A DNA stretch of 49,434 nucleotides from Ophiosphaerella korrae (lineage: Eukaryota; Ascomycota; Dothideomycetes; Pleosporales; Phaeosphaeriaceae), in NCBI GenBank assembly GCA_028456385.1, contig JALNQF010000310.1, forward strand, positions 1-49,434, in the 5' to 3' direction. The notes beneath the pieces were generated by a model. That model did no database searches and was not told where the DNA came from. It saw only the letters and a list, made by a program, of their open reading frames with translations. Of this stretch, positions 12,742-46,530 are shown in pieces. Position numbers and translations under genes: made by a program. Within the stretch, counting starts at the first letter, position 1, and each line of letters opens with the position of its first letter.

Positions 12742-13418
12742 GTGTGAACTCGAGTGAGAAGAGAGTTGATTGATTGATTTCTGTGTGTCTATCTCTGGCC
12801 CTGCGCTCCATCTATGTATCTGCGCTGCAGCGGTCTCGGCTGGGTCTCTCAAGACGGCGGCGAGCCGGTTCCTCAGCACTCATTCTGTTGAGGTGCTGGT
12901 CCCTTTGTTGTATCTGGTGTACTGACGTAGTCTATCTCCTTGCATGTGAGATCCTTTTGTTTGATTCCTTTGTTCGTGAAGGTCGAGGCTGCGATCTTTT
13001 CAGCTGCGGCGGGGTTGGCAGCTTGGCGATCGTCACGCTCGTGCGCCGAGCCAATCAGATCGCCGCACTAGCCTAAGCGAGCCAATCAACAGATTCCAGG
13101 TACACCCGGAATCTGTTGCGCTTCTCTGCGCACATGCTGTCGCGCATCTGATCGCACATGTGATCGCGCATCTAATCGCGCATCTGATCGTGCAACTCAT
13201 CGCGCATCTAATCGTGCAACTCATCTGACAAAAGTCTTAGCAAGCGGACCGACCTTAGCCCCGAAGCCTTGTGATCTAACCAACTCACCTCTTATAGGAT
13301 TCGCCATCTCACAGGGGCTGTGCCGGTGCGGGTCGGCCGCCCTCCCTGCTCACGGTGGCGAGTTGAAGTATTTATGCGTCAATTCACTGCTTGTACGGAG
13401 GTAAATACCGCTAATTAT
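12742..13418 (+). repeat. Left arm of long inverted repeat flanking HET locus
   Basis: This arm matches the reverse complement of 16973-17490. The shared part begins near GAACTCGAGTG, includes TGGCCCTGCGCTC and the GGCGATCGTCACGCTCGTG segment, and ends at GGTAAATACCGCTAATTAT (13418). The left arm carries about 90 bases (around 13050-13130, including AGATTCCAGGTACACC) that the right arm lacks. A RIP-mutated copy with that extra segment is present at 1651-1913, so the right arm has lost it. The repeat also carries a near-palindrome, CCTCAGCA...TGTTGAGG. I cannot assign it to a transposon family; a retroelement LTR is possible. Confidence 0.8.
13133..13215 (+). repeat. 12 bp minisatellite
   Basis: About seven copies of a degenerate 12-mer, (A/G)ATCGCGCATCT, sit in the left arm. 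The right arm has a shorter version (about 17130-17195) and the RIP-mutated copy also contains it. Confidence 0.8.
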
Positions 13419-13542
13419 CTTGCCACCAGACCGGTTTCGTATAAGGACGCATGCAGCAGTCTTTACGGTAGGCATCCCCGTAACCCGGTCAAAAGTGTTG
13501 CAATAGTCTACTACTCCCCCAAAATTGTTTGCCTGACGTCGT

Positions 13543-15468
13543 TCACACGACTCGTATGTTGGTCCTCTGCCCTACCACATAGTCGCTCTGTGTCAACCCA
13601 ACACCAGTCCTCTTGTACTCGCCATCCACGCCAGTTGACCTAACAACCAGTACGTAGTATTCGCCAATACCATGTTTCCTTCCAATGACAACACACTGTT
13701 CTTCGCGTAGATCTTTACCGCCCTCAACGTCATACTGAATCCACCCTCTTTTCACTCCGTTAGGATCCAAGACCGCATACTGCGCCTCGTGAAGTCTGAT
13801 CGTACAGTTCTGAAACGTCCACAAGTTGGCGATTATAGCATGGCCGCATTCGCGCTCCTCGTCGAACCGGAGGTGATCAATCCAATCAACTTCGCCCAAG
13901 GGGATATCCATGAGCTGGATACCTCCGCTATATGCCATCCATGACCAAGATGGCACATGGTAGTCGTACGCAATCTCCTTCATCTTGTCGTCCGATGCCC
14001 GCCAGAGGAGGTTCCTGTGAAGATACTTTTCGAAGATGCCATATCTACTGTGGCATTCTAAGGCACCCGCGATACGATCCACTAATCCAGATATTGCAAC
14101 GCATCTATCACTTGGGACTGTAAGGTCCCGCTTCGAGTATTCCTGGAGTAGAGAGGAAATACAATTGAGGGTACGTCGTCTGCCTAATCGAAGGAGCTGT
14201 TCCGGGAAGTTAGGATCGAGCGTAAAGTACCTGCCCGTAGGAGGGCTAAGGATAACGATAATTAGTTATAAAGATGTTCACTTAGATGTTTCGAAGCTCT
14301 TACCTTTGTAGCTGAGTAAGGTTCTCGCAGTACACCCCTTTACCACATTCCCAGTATATCTGATTGGCGCTAAAGTGGATTGTCCGTCGCGCCAAAACAT
14401 GTTCTTGCATTACCCATGCTCGCGTGTTGAGCTGGGCCTTGCCCACATCGTTGTCAAAATCATCTATATCAGTGCTGATATAGAACTGCTTGCCTGAGGC
14501 ATCTTGAACATGGACATACTCAGGGCTTACGTCACGCTCAAGGAACCCTGCGTAGGAGTCGACAGCTACGGTTGCAGCGAGTGTGCAATAAGCGTACGAG
14601 AAAACGCCTTCCATTCGGCCAGATTCGCGTTTCCAGTCCTCGCTATCGTCCCCGTATTGGATGATGCAGAGTGAGTCGATCCAGAGATAGAGAACGCCAA
14701 GTTCTCGAGTCACCTTGACGGCGTCTTGAAAAGTCTTCGGTAGTTCAGAGAGACTGAATCCTCTCAACCGCAGATTAATATTATCCTGGGTTGTACAGTA
14801 CGCCTTCTTCTTTTCATCTAATCGTTTCTTCTCTTCATCTGAGACGTTGTCTGAGACGTTGCCCCAGCAGTGGGATAGTGCTAGGTATTCGTGTCCGCTT
14901 GCTTGTGAACCATAGACCAGACGTACTAAACCTGAAGAGTAACCTGAGTCCTTTGGGTCACCGACGTAGAGGACTCTTGTTGGCAACGCTTCCTTGGATC
15001 CGCGTGATTGCTTGTTGCAATCGTGAGACTCGTCACAGCGACGAAGCCATGCGCGGAGCAGTGCAAATCGTGCAGGGTTGTTGGGATCAGCCATGAATGG
15101 GCGGCCAAGTGGGACTTTCCAATGGGCACGAACAGCGCATTCTGTAGCAAATAAGAGTTAGTTTCGTTTAGAGTGCAAGGATGTTTATAGGCACTAACCT
15201 GGATCCGCACAAAATCGCAGAACACGCGGGCCTCCTGCTCCTACCTTGAGTGCCGAGGGTATTCGTTGTATTTCAATATTCCTGTCATCATCATGGCAGC
15301 AGCGCTGAAATGCTTGGAGGAGCATTCTGCAGATAGAACAGCTTTCTGCGGCGGTACGGATATCAGAAAGGCTAATAGTGTAAGTAGCCACGGTGTGAAC
15401 TTCGGCCACAATCGCGCTGCAGCAGGAACAAAGTTGAACCGTAGAAGGGAACGGACCAAACGGTAGAC
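13543..15468 (-). CDS. HET-domain (heterokaryon incompatibility) gene, main exons
   Basis: Three exons (15468-15199, 15141-14304, 14245-13543) join in frame across introns of 57 bp (15142-15198) and 58 bp (14246-14303), giving about 603 residues with no damage. The N-terminal part has a Cys-rich entry, VQLCSCCSAIV, then SCSICRMLLQAF. The HET domain proper shows EYLALSHCWGN, GVLYLWIDSLCIIQYGDDSE, DWKRESGRMEGVFSYAYCTL and LNTRAWVMQEHVLARRTIHF. The C-terminal region has LLWRASDDK and YHVPSWSWMAY and ends in a typical beta-rich tail (YYVLVVRSTG). HET domains trigger programmed cell death when genetically different hyphae fuse. No start codon fits the first exon. It begins at a strong acceptor (CACCTTTCTCTCAG) in phase 1, so the gene must start upstream, beyond the microexon array. 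Confidence 0.93.
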
Positions 15469-15586
15469 CTGAGAGAAAGGTGCGTGTAAAGTCGTTGTCG
15501 AACCTGAGACACCAATTATTGTACTATTCCCAATTGCATGTCAGCGTATTGTCTATGCGAAGGAGTAATTTGGAAGCTTTACATAC
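15469..15586 (-). other. Intron joining the microexon array to the HET exon
   Basis: This 118 bp intron has a GTATGT donor, an internal CGCTGAC branch-like site and a pyrimidine-rich acceptor (CCTTTCTCTCAG). It is not a member of the repeat family. An earlier acceptor (GGGAATAG at about 15524) would lead to a stop in phase 1, so the distal acceptor is preferred. Confidence 0.65.
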
Positions 15587-16656
15587 CAGCTACAACACCG
15601 GACACACCATCATTAGCAGCAGCTTCGTATCTCAGTCTTCGCAGCCTAACTTACGTCCTACACCAAACACGCCATCTTTAGCAGCAGCCTCGCATCTTAG
15701 TCTTCGCAGCTTAACTTACTGGCTATACCACCAGGCACACCATCGTTAGCAGCAGCTTCGTATCTTAGTCTTCGTAGCTTAACTTACGCTCTACACCACC
15801 AGACGCACCGTCGTTAGCAGCAGCCTGGCATCTCAGTCTTCGCAGCTCAACTTACCCACTACACCACCAGATGCACCGTCATTAGCAGCAGCCTCGCATC
15901 TTAGTGTTCGCAGCTTAACTTACAAACTACGCCATCAGACGCACCGCTATTAGCAGCAGCCTCGCATCCCAGTCTTCGCAGCTTAACTTACGCTCTACAC
16001 CACCAGATGCACCGTCGTTAGCAGCAGCCTCGCATCTCAGTCTTCGCAGCTCAACTTACCATCTACACCACCAGACACGCCGTCATTAGCAGCAGCCTCG
16101 CATCTTAGTGTTTGCAGCTTAACTTACCCACTACACCACCAGACACGCCGTCATTAGCAGCCTCGCATCTCAGTGTTCGCAGCCCAACTTACGCGCTACA
16201 CCATCAGACGCACCACTATTAGCAGCAGCCTCGCGTCTTAGTCTTCGCAGCTTAACTTACTGGCTATACCACCGGGCACACCATCGTTAGCAGCAGCTTC
16301 GTATCTTAGTCTTCGCAGCTTAACTTACGCCCTACACCACCAGGCACGTCGTCATTAGCGGCAACCTCGCATTTTAGTCTTCGCAGCTCAACTTACCTCC
16401 TACACCACCAGGCACATCGTCATTAGCAGCAGCCTCGCATCTCAGCGTTCGCAGATCAACTTACCAACTATACCACCAAGCACACCGTTATTAGCAGCAG
16501 TCTTGCATCTCAGTCTTCGCGGTTCAACTTACCTCCTGCACCACCAGGCATACCGTTATTAGCACGAATATCGGGTGTAAATATGCGCAGATTGACTTAC
16601 TTCCTATAGTTGTATCTTAGTATAATTGTCAACCCCCTAGAGTAAATACCTACCTC
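15587..16656 (-). other. Seventeen 3-nt microexons separated by mini-introns
   Basis: On the minus strand, an AG acceptor is followed by exactly three bases and then a GT donor, 17 times. In transcript order (leftmost plus-strand coordinate, triplet as transcribed): 16654 GAG; 16601 GAA; 16533 GAG; 16465 TTG; 16397 GAG; 16329 GGC; 16261 CCA; 16193 CGC; 16128 TGG; 16060 ATG; 15992 AGC; 15924 TTT; 15856 TGG; 15788 AGC; 15720 CCA; 15655 GAC; 15587 CTG. The preceding exon ends with one base of a codon (A at 16747), and the HET exon needs one carried base. Read in that phase, the triplets give RGRVGGPTLDELLEPRPG with no stop, then continue into the HET frame. Because each microexon is 3 nt, adding or losing units never breaks the frame. 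Exon definition of a 3-nt exon is unusual; recursive or intron-defined splicing would be needed. Triplet positions are directly seen; splicing is inferred. Confidence 0.8.
15590..16600 (-). repeat. Tandem array of 15 intron-like units
   Basis: Fifteen units of 65 bp (62 bp in two, at 16131-16192 and 15658-15719, through loss of one GCT or GGT) alternate with the triplets, giving a 68 bp period. Every unit begins GTAAGT and ends in TAG, except the first, which ends GCAG. Each carries GCTGCTAA(T/C/A) 22-28 bases before the 3' end. Differences between units are mostly transitions. The first unit (16536-16600) is diverged in its 5' half. Two further non-repeat introns precede the array: 16657-16746 (GTGAGT donor) and 16604-16653 (GTAGGT donor). 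Units before the two CCA triplets are nearly identical to each other, as are those before the two AGC triplets, so intron and triplet are copied together. Confidence 0.92.
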
Positions 16657-16747
16657 CTAATTATCTTGTCAGCTAGGGTTAGACAGTCATAGTGTGAATG
16701 GCAAGAGTACCGTAAATGACCAGTTCTTTTCCATGTCTTTACTCACT

Positions 16748-16972
16748 CTTATTAGGGGGAAGTAGCTCTGGAACTGATATATTATAGAAGATACAGAAAG
16801 TGTCTGATGGGATGTCTCTGAGTGCACGGCGAAATGCGGGGTAATCTAGCCCCTGCGGCCTAAATGTGTCGGAGTTGTAATTGTTCCGATGGTTTCTGGC
16901 TTCGTGCAGCAGGCGAATCGGGTTAAGCGCCAAGGCGAAGCTGATCGTTGCCTGCACTTGTTTTGATGCAGT
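16748..16972 (-). CDS. Candidate upstream exon of the HET gene
   Basis: An open frame reads through LLHEARNHRNN, RPQGLDYPAFRRALRDIPSD, TFCIFYNISVPELLPPNK and ends at A16747, directly before a GTGAGT donor. The phase (one base carried) agrees with the microexons and the HET exon. I do not recognise a domain. The frame stays open into the right inverted-repeat arm as far as about 17070, but contains no in-frame ATG. In the repeat, an ATG (ATGCGTCAATTC) is out of frame by one base here, although in the left arm the same ATG is in frame with the equivalent EVNTANY residues. The true start may therefore be in an earlier exon, or the 5' end may have been damaged. Confidence 0.5.
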
Positions 16973-17490
16973 ATAATTAGCGGTATTTACCTCTGTACCA
17001 AGCAGTGAATTGACGCATAAATACTTCAACTCGCCACCGTAAGCAGGGAGGGCGGCCAACCCGCACCGGCACAGCCCCTATGAGATAGCGAATTCTATAA
17101 GAGGTGAGTTAGTTAGATTTGTCAGATGAGTTGAACGATTAGACGCGCGATCAGATGCGCGATTAGATGTACGATCAGATGCGCGATAGCATGTGCGCAC
17201 GAGCGTGACGATCGCCAAGCCGCCAACCCCCACCGCAGCTGAAAAGATCGCAGCCTCGACCTTCACGAGCAAAGGAATCAAACAAAAGGATCTCACATGC
17301 AAGGAGATAAACTACGTTAGTACAACTGATACAACAAAGAAACCAGCACCTCAACAGAAGGGGTGTTGAGGATCCGGCTCGCCGCCGTCTCGAGAGACCC
17401 AGCCGAGACCGCCGCAGCGCAGATACATAGATAGAGCGCAGGGCCAGAGATAGAAACACAGAGATCAATCATTCCACTCAGTTCATACCT
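16973..17490 (-). repeat. Right arm of long inverted repeat flanking HET locus
   Basis: This is the inverted counterpart of 12742-13418, shorter because it lacks the ~90 bp internal segment and has fewer minisatellite copies. Its inner edge (ATAATTAG at 16973) abuts the candidate upstream exon. It has not suffered RIP, unlike the copy at 1651-1913. Confidence 0.8.
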
Positions 17491-17767: not shown

Positions 17768-18816
17768 TTCACACTACATCTGCAAACCATGGATGTGACA
17801 AAGCTTCATGGGCTGTGATTCGTCCCTTGGGGTCAATATTCGTCATCTTTCCGACTAGGTCTTTGAATTCTGGCTCAATATCTTTCCACAGCGCGAACGG
17901 CTCCCGAGGAAGCTCTTTGTTGAAGCCCTCTGCAATCACGGTGAATATTTGGGTTCAAGGGCTGTCTCCTAGATACTGGAGCAGACCACCCAAACTCTCT
18001 AGATCAGAGAAGTAGGACAACTGTCGTTCGAGAACGATAGCCAGCTTGTCCTCGCCTTCCTTGAGTTCTTCGTCGGTGACGGCGAAAATGACCCGTTTAG
18101 TCAGGGCATAGATGCACTGTATTTCAGCAAGTCAGCAAATAGAAGGATCTTTTAGTCGCACAAAAACTTACGACAATGCCAAAGGAGAAGATATCTGATG
18201 GCTTGTGAACCTGACCAGATGCATGAGCCTCGGGGGACTTCGCCACATCCAATTCCCCACCTGCCTTCCAACGATGGCACAATTGTGCGGAACATACGCA
18301 GCATCCTCGATGTCGGCAATCTGGACCAGCTGAATGGTAGTATTACCTTCCGTCTCGTCCCAATCCACCATAATATTATTTGCCTTGATATCCGTATGCA
18401 CGATGTCTTTCTCGTGTAATGCCGCAATGCCTCGGAGGGAGTCCCTCAATATTCGTTTTATCAGAGGAAGTGGGATGTCTTTCTGAGCGAAAGAAAGTAG
18501 ATGGTCCTTGAAGTATTTGTAGGCAAACATGGATTGGTCGGGAATTGCATCATCGGCTACGCGGACGTAAGGAGACATTCTAAGATGGCTGAACATGTCT
18601 TGAAAATATTTGAAGTCGTTCTTTGGCACGCTCTTCAAGATATATTGCTGGTTACCAGCTCTACAGATGAGGAGTTAGTAGATTGTAAAACTTGGATAGT
18701 GGGTAGATCTACGAAGCAAGATACACTCGTCCAAGCGGTCCTGGTTTCTCCTGTAGAACTCTTTCAACGAGATACCGACGGCCCGATTGGCCTACGGCTC
18801 GCGTGATGGCAGCCAT
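17768..18816 (-). pseudogene. Protein kinase-like gene, broken
   Basis: The exons 18816-18713, 18660-18172 and 18116-17768 are separated by 52 and 55 bp introns with good splice sites. The N-terminus reads YLVERVLQEKPGPLGRVYLA (degenerate glycine loop) and QQYILKSVPKND (the beta-3 lysine). The catalytic loop is IVHTDIKANNIMVDWD, with HTD in place of HRD, and the DFG position reads ADIEDAAYV. Both variants are typical of a lineage-expanded fungal kinase family, so activity is uncertain even in intact members. Downstream sequence ends HPWFADVV, the usual end of subdomain XI. A run of five C near 18240 shifts the frame inside the RSPEA motif, and a Trp codon has become TGA around 17960 (DSP*TQIF). 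These two lesions make it a pseudogene, although the frameshift could be a sequence error. Confidence 0.82.
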
Positions 18817-45740: not shown

Positions 45741-46066
45741 AGTAGATTAATACGTATATATAAAAGATCCTATAAATACCTAGATATCTAAGAAAAGTTT
45801 CTTACTACTAATATTAAGAACTATAGTAGTTAAGATATATATATAATAAGGGTTAAGTGCGTAGATATATATATATAGGAATATCCTACCTATATATAAT
45901 AAGTAATCGAAAAATTAACTATTACTTATTTAATAGCTAAGCTTAAATCTTTTATACTAATATTACAGTGTAGCGGGTATTAGGTATATAAGTATAGGTA
46001 TTCTACTTACTTGTAACTACTAATTAATAAACTTATAAAGAAGCCTCTCTAGAGTAATAAATATAA

Positions 46067-46530
46067 CTAGGACGTCTCTCTAGGGCGATAAATATAACTA
46101 GGACGCCTCTCTAAAGCAATAAATGTAACTAGGACGATGCTCTCTAGATACAAATATAGGGACGTCTCTCTAGGGCGATAAATGTAACTAGGACGCCTCT
46201 CTAAGGCGATAAATATAACTAGGACGATACTCTCTAGATATAAATATAGGAACGTCTCTCTAGAGCAATAAATATAACTAGGACGCCTCTCTAAGGTAAT
46301 AAATGTAACTAAGACAAATCTCTTAGGATACCTCTCTAGGGACATCTCTCTAGGGCGATAAATGTAACTAGGACGCCTCTCTAGGGTAATAAATATAACT
46401 AGGATAAATCTCCTAAGATACCTCTCTAAAGATATCTCTCTAGGGCGACAAATATAACTAGGACGCTTCTCTAAGGTAATAAATGTAACTAAGACGTTTC
46501 TATAGGGTAATAAATATAACTAGGATATTT
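46067..46530. repeat. Decayed compound minisatellite
   Basis: A basic unit of about 31 bp (GACGCCTCTCTAAGGCGATA followed by AATRTAACTAG) recurs many times. Every third unit or so is replaced by a variant (GACGATACTCTCTAGATA), giving a higher-order period near 90 bp on the left half. The minus strand stays open for 92 codons across it, with the period visible as LERRPSYIYRPRETS. Confidence 0.85.

Follow-up and report, generated by a model that had tools for sequence, protein, structure and literature searches.

A stretch of 49,434 nucleotides from Ophiosphaerella korrae (contig JALNQF010000310.1, hereafter the window) carries on its minus strand a tandem array of nucleotide triplets separated by mini-introns, ahead of a gene of the HET-domain family, which is associated with self/non-self recognition and cell death. 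This raises the question of whether a protein can be assembled in part from exons of one codon each. We consider it likely that the triplets are single-codon exons, predicted to be spliced together, and that the HET protein would thereby gain a hypervariable peptide at its N terminus. The reading rests on a path that keeps phase 0 from the ATG exon across all 17 triplets to the HET body, on the consensus splice sites, on the saturated variation of the triplets and on the recurrence of the layout at other loci.

A preliminary description of this DNA had placed 17 minus-strand triplets between AG acceptors and GT donors, and all of them were confirmed, from 16656–16654 down to 15589–15587. Its account of fifteen introns of 62–65 nucleotides with GTAAGT, a branch-like site and TAG was also borne out. 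GTAAGT is present in 15/15 and TAG in 14/15 (one ends in CAG), and the branch-like site reads CTRAY in 14/15, at a constant distance from the acceptor, with CTAAA in the remaining one. The minus strand from 13543 to 16734 forms one gene model of 21 exons with a single stop-free open frame of 646 residues (Table 1), in which the HET profile PF06985 is matched over its full length (1–146 of 146, E 4.4e-28) in the second body exon. The microexons read, in order, GAG GAA GAG TTG GAG GGC CCA CGC TGG ATG AGC TTT TGG AGC CCA GAC CTG, with 12 distinct spellings among the 17, and would encode the peptide EEELEGPRWMSFWSPDL. From exon 1 to the first body exon there are 18 introns of 50–65 nucleotides, with the donor GTAAGT in 15 and GTACTC, GTAGGT and GTATGT in the other three. 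Since the introns of the HET body measure 57 and 58 nucleotides, the size of the mini-introns is ordinary for this gene.

The reading frame fits this arrangement. Both flanks of the array are in phase 0 at the window locus (labelled C236 in comparisons between loci) and at four further arrays of the same genome, C412, C185, C304 and C668, which are the five loci where both flanks are readable, with the last acceptors picked by eye. Random subsets of the microexons kept the frame in 1000/1000 cases, as did inclusion of all or none of them. Whole units can thus be altered, whether in the germline or through skipping, and the HET body is left unharmed. Retention of a single intron broke the frame in 18/18 cases, and retention of the whole array gave a stop after 15 residues. 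No stop codon occurs among 77 pooled, hand-listed triplets (chance 0.04), and the two shifted phases contain 1 and 0 stops for C236 and 1 and 5 for C304. The earlier proposal that one-codon exons are joined to a HET protein without risk to the frame is therefore well supported by phase, absence of stops, subsets, intron retention and seven further arrays, and at the level of the transcript it stands as a prediction from the sequence.

That any subset stays in frame would also suit combinatorial splicing as the main source of diversity, with many include-or-skip combinations and many tails per gene, as reported for NACHT-ANK genes of Tuber, where the accessible text of three papers describes alternative splicing of codon-sized microexons (PMC4986451, PMC10197012, PMC3689799). 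Regulated choice would be expected to involve weak and strong sites, and these were not seen in the window, where donors, branch core and acceptors hardly vary. The triplets, moreover, differ already in the germline. We find it rather unlikely that splicing choice is the principal source of variation.

The triplets and the mini-introns between them vary in different ways. The mean pairwise identity of the 15 repeated mini-introns is 0.83; the most upstream one diverges in mid-sequence and the other 14 are closely alike. The window array has a Tandem Repeats Finder score of 1126. Diversity statistics for the window were based on 14/16 intron–triplet units, with the two divergent 5' units set aside, and those for C304 on 34/34 units. 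Across the 14 regular units, entropy in the three triplet columns is 1.99, 1.84 and 1.73 bits, near the ceiling of 2 bits, as compared to an average of 0.32 and a highest value of 1.20 over 65 intron columns, and random triples of columns reached the triplet values in 4 of 200,000 draws. The 32 invariant columns include every one of the 13 that carry splice signals (GTAAGT, CTAA, TAG; hypergeometric 2e-5). The mean per-site difference was 0.755 for triplets and 0.148 for mini-introns in the window, versus 0.523 and 0.140 at C304. Counted over unit pairs, which are not independent events, transitions and transversions numbered 769 and 92 in the introns and 62 and 144 in the triplets of the window, and 5252 and 66 in the introns and 264 and 616 in the triplets of C304. 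Transversions thus make up 70% of the triplet differences in both arrays, but only 11% (window) and 1% (C304) of those in the introns. Even where two introns are at least 92% identical, their triplets differ at 1.50 of 3 bases in the window (6 pairs) and at 1.67 of 3 at C304 (46 pairs), against an expectation of approximately 0.16. Two window intron pairs at 97% identity carry the same triplet (AGC, CCA) and look like recent duplications.

Because the triplets differ in mutation pattern from their own introns, they do not behave as neutral spacer. This bears on the alternative that the array is a non-coding minisatellite, located in one large intron or a 5' leader and spliced out whole, with the triplets as unconstrained spacer. 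The annotation of the Lepidopterella protein P0014 without microexons and the consensus donors of two arrays that lack a HET body (C277 and C224), both taken up below, are in line with such a view. However, a neutral spacer would share the mutations of the introns, and here near-identical introns carry differing triplets with a far higher share of transversions. Phase 0, the lack of stops and the invariant splice signals fit coding, and a single intron would have to span approximately 1.2 kb at C236 and 2.5 kb at C304, as compared to 57 and 58 nucleotides in the HET body. A non-coding array is in our judgement very unlikely. For single-codon exons, the hypervariability of the triplets would fit diversifying selection, unit exchange or a targeted process alike, and the data do not separate these. 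As change is confined to the triplet and comes by transversions, there may even be a process directed at these three bases alone or swapping them.

Other arrays were sought in the 63 Mb genome (974 contigs) with the pattern AG-NNN-GTAAGT occurring twice at intron distance. The search returned 69 matches, as compared to 2 for the reversed pattern, and 46/69 fell within six arrays. The remaining 23 are isolated or overlapping pairs, many of them in dispersed repeats. Among the variants of the pattern, a 4-nucleotide exon gave 10 matches, none tandem, the donor GTATGT gave 1 match, and a wider spacing gave 4, none of which is an array; no match was found in the viral contigs searched. A 6-nucleotide control gave 122 matches, exceeding the 3-nucleotide pattern, with none tandem among the matches listed, and those shown with their letters belong nearly all to one dispersed repeat. 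This repeat, approximately 94 bp long (e.g. C14:2300-2393), contains the word ACTTAC twice at constant spacing. Two arrays, at C185 and C7, were added through DNA similarity, beyond the splice-pattern search.

The seven arrays found besides that of the window comprise four with a HET-type first exon and related mini-introns, one ahead of a HET gene with unrelated mini-introns, and two in ankyrin genes. C412 has 4 triplets and HET frames that are open in the parts read; C185 has 9 triplets and a HET gene with stops; C277 and C224 have 4 listed triplets each, and a HET body at these two loci is not among the 95 genome HET matches reported at E 1e-10. The array at C304 (25772–28245) places 34 triplets, 29 of which end in T, ahead of a HET gene whose HET exon is open and whose 3' end lies beyond the part read. 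Its mini-intron unit, searched genome-wide, was found at C304 only. The first exons measure 24 nucleotides in the window, 24 at C185 and C277, 36 at C412 and C224, and 51 at C304, all divisible by three. At C668 (55230–55590), the encoded protein matches PF24883 (E 5.5e-42) and ankyrin PF12796 (E 2.2e-41), and we take the former, also from its GCGKS loop, to be NACHT-like. Four triplets in 80-bp units stand here between ...GAKVDHVYTV and TPLYRAKEKG, within the ankyrin match and in phase 0 on both sides, at a position which we assume from the ankyrin consensus to be the variable loop. C7, where a single triplet is clear, is a relic of this type. In C202, a close HET paralogue, the N terminus lies within an open frame of 400 residues and a search of the 3.8-kb stretch detected no tandem repeat, so that the array is optional. 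A promoter-like stretch is common to the paralogues.

Comparison of units between loci showed that the closest unit comes from the same locus for 23/29 units, 15 of these 29 being window units and C304 not included. Of the six exceptions, five are units of the broken C185, where similarity is 0.668 among the units themselves and 0.695 to window units. The unit donors are GTAAGT in 15/15 cases in the window and in 2/7 at C185, and this decay at a broken gene suggests that donors are kept by use. The broken C185 and the arrays without a HET body at C277 and C224 lend some colour to the idea that the window array, too, is a decaying relic in a gene that no longer makes protein. The unbroken frame of 646 residues and the intact set of unit donors argue against this for the window gene, and we judge it extremely unlikely.

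The best named protein relatives are HET proteins, mostly from species that we assign by name to the Pleosporales. One of them, the annotated protein P0002 of Phaeosphaeriaceae sp. PMI808, starts with MENKWSFT and continues with repeats of the type CEAAANASVLGGV; in one frame, translation of the window unit at 16127 yields CEAAANDGVSGGV. A tblastn comparison with the window array alone aligned residues 18–271 of P0002 to its translation (E 5e-11), and the annotated protein thus contains translated mini-introns. The arrays would therefore explain a class of wrong gene models. A motif similar to the translated mini-introns is present in P0016 (Phaeosphaeriaceae sp. PMI808) and P0026 (Macroventuria), and on this motif they may contain translated mini-introns as well; tblastn against the window array (E 0.01) found nothing for these two or for P0059, and P0059 was dropped as a candidate of this kind.

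Two further relatives are P0001 and P0013. Their source contigs, of 2060 and 2106 bases, bear the tag lgn, which presumably denotes assemblies of public read archives. By eye, both pass through the two later intron sites. Before the conserved YN-W, P0001 has the tail MPW (YNDW) and P0013 the tail MVQDRDRVVRYEER (YNNW), both unlike exon 1. In the window, the three bases just before TAC are the TAG of the intron end, an in-frame stop, and the short tails therefore fit removal of that intron. It is suggestive that these tails may reflect spliced microexons.

Several observations weigh against single-codon exons that are spliced and functional. P0001 and P0013 may not represent complementary DNA. 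The annotated P0014 joins a similar exon 1 directly to the body, as if the microexons were skipped or absent. At C304, 6/34 units start with ATAAGT and should not work as donors, and the arrays at C277 (2/2) and C224 (3/3), which have no HET body, still show GTAAGT, contrary to the argument that donors are kept by use. The absence of stops is weak when each array is taken alone (P 0.35 for the window, P 0.55 for C304). An AlphaFold2 model of P0013 (49 homologues) had a mean predicted local distance difference test score of 88.5, with residues 1–10 below 50, so that the tail is predicted to be flexible or disordered. Follow-up protein searches returned only the query itself, and a fold search of the PDB found nothing at E 0.001.

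If the triplets are exons, the mini-introns would be removed one by one through intron definition, each recognised as a unit across 65 nucleotides and probably in 5' to 3' order, since U1 and U2AF could hardly occupy a 3-nucleotide exon together. This order would leave the next donor behind an exon already joined, with no clash over the three bases. Intron-plus-codon units would be duplicated, lost or replaced and so alter the peptide, and a skipped unit would cost one residue with no frameshift. The tail might then serve as the recognition or partner-binding part, with the HET domain, which is reported to induce cell death in the genes studied, as the effector. Tentatively, and with less confidence than for the window gene itself, we suggest that intron-plus-one-codon units could be a general diversification cassette of fungal immunity, each unit holding a single residue open to free exchange and secured in frame by the splice sites of that unit, and placed as an N-terminal tail on HET effectors and in the ankyrin loop of NACHT-ANK receptors, with unrelated introns from locus to locus. 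Splicing as predicted would probe the lower limit of exon size in an intron-definition system.

Schistosoma micro-exon genes contain many small exons divisible by three and encode variable proteins; these exons exceed a single codon, and the genes are not known to be of the HET or NOD-like receptor (NLR) type. The window gene shares with them the many small exons of a length divisible by three and differs in exons of one codon. The preliminary description knew of no described system of this kind, and this does not hold: as far as the accessible text goes, codon-sized or 3-bp, alternatively spliced microexons have already been reported in the NACHT-ANK (nank) genes of Tuber melanosporum, with credit to Iotti et al. 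2012 (PMC4986451, PMC10197012, PMC3689799). The likeness lies in runs of 3-bp exons in immune-type fungal genes, 17 in the window and 34 at C304 as read from DNA, and it extends to C668, which has such an array together with NACHT-like and ankyrin domains and looks like the same kind of gene. In contrast to the nank genes, the window gene has the HET domain only, with no NACHT or ankyrin match, and its array is N-terminal, ahead of the effector domain.

The HNWD allorecognition genes of Podospora (het-d, het-e) also combine a HET effector with similar tandem units that are kept alike within the family and change at few codons, according to the available part of the source (PMC1805685). The window shows the same two features, a few codon positions far more variable than the rest of the unit and units that resemble their own locus. 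The HNWD unit is described as a WD40 coding repeat with four selected codons (PMC1805685), whereas the window unit consists of an intron and a single codon. The three body-exon frames of the window gene gave no match to NACHT or WD, and the gene therefore lacks the HNWD architecture. Podospora het-B is similar in being a HET protein and not an NLR, going by the accessible text (PMC10890737), and the window gene differs in that its hypervariable part is an N-terminal tail. In Trichoderma, the abstract on Xlr2 presents a functional microexon and calls functional microexons undescribed before in filamentous fungi (PMC11121469). This is likewise a microexon of a filamentous ascomycete, but a single regulated one in a transcription-factor gene, with no tandem array in the text available (PMC11121469).

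A literature search with wordings for one-codon exons, in which subscription papers and bioRxiv preprints were mostly outside coverage, returned the Tuber case only and, among the matches listed, no HET case. Thus, the kind of exon is known, while the HET host, the N-terminal place, the occurrence of the two gene types together in a single genome and the hypervariability measured for the triplets look new. Codon-sized microexons, reported from NLRs of truffles, would thereby also be a feature of HET genes. A 2023 review, in the part available, states that HET is sufficient for fungal cell death and remotely related to TIR, and treats the forces that diversify HET genes as an open question (PMC10197012). 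The window gene is a concrete candidate for such diversification, as each residue of the tail would lie in its own exon, so that the tail could change in length and content with the frame intact.

Table 1. Features of the predicted HET gene and its microexon array in the window.
Feature	Position	Strand	Basis
First coding exon, predicted, MEKNWSFT (ATG...ACG), 24 nucleotides, phase 0	16711..16734	minus	Gene model, matching first exons at other arrays, MENKWSFT start of P0002
Intron 1, 54 nucleotides, GTACTC...TTAG	16657..16710	minus	Gene model
Array of 17 single-triplet microexons and the 16 mini-introns between them	15587..16656	minus	AG/GT borders, gene model
15 repeated mini-introns, 62–65 nucleotides, GTAAGT, with interposed triplets	15590..16600	minus	Gene model, intron comparison
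Last array intron, 63 nucleotides, GTATGT...AATAG, joining CTG to TAC in phase 0	15524..15586	minus	Acceptor picked by eye
First HET body exon, begins YNNWCLRFDNDF	15199..15523	minus	Identity of 50% to the exon at C185 and 44% to that at C412
Second body exon, with HET domain PF06985	14304..15141	minus	Pfam E 4.4e-28
Third body exon, ends in TGA	13543..14245	minus	Gene model

The third body exon has no Pfam match at E 0.1. Two alternative borders of the gene were rejected. Splicing of the last triplet to the acceptor GTCTCAG would lose phase 0 and lengthen the intron, and GGAATAG|TAC gives 63 nucleotides and phase 0. The upstream open reading frame at 16739–17077 has neither a Pfam match nor a phase 0 link and was ruled out as the first exon.

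Inverted repeat copies flank the HET gene at 12758–13423 and 16968–17484, which raised the possibility of a transposon carrying the gene. This was dropped, since approximately 460 bp of the repeat is dispersed in the genome, with at least 47 matching pieces (the best 40 of 339 candidates were scored). Next to the HET gene, on the minus strand at 18168–18674, lies an open frame whose translation matches PF00069 (protein kinase, E 2.6e-9). A further tandem array in the window, at 46034–46525, has units of 31/90 bp, too short to be introns like the mini-introns described here.
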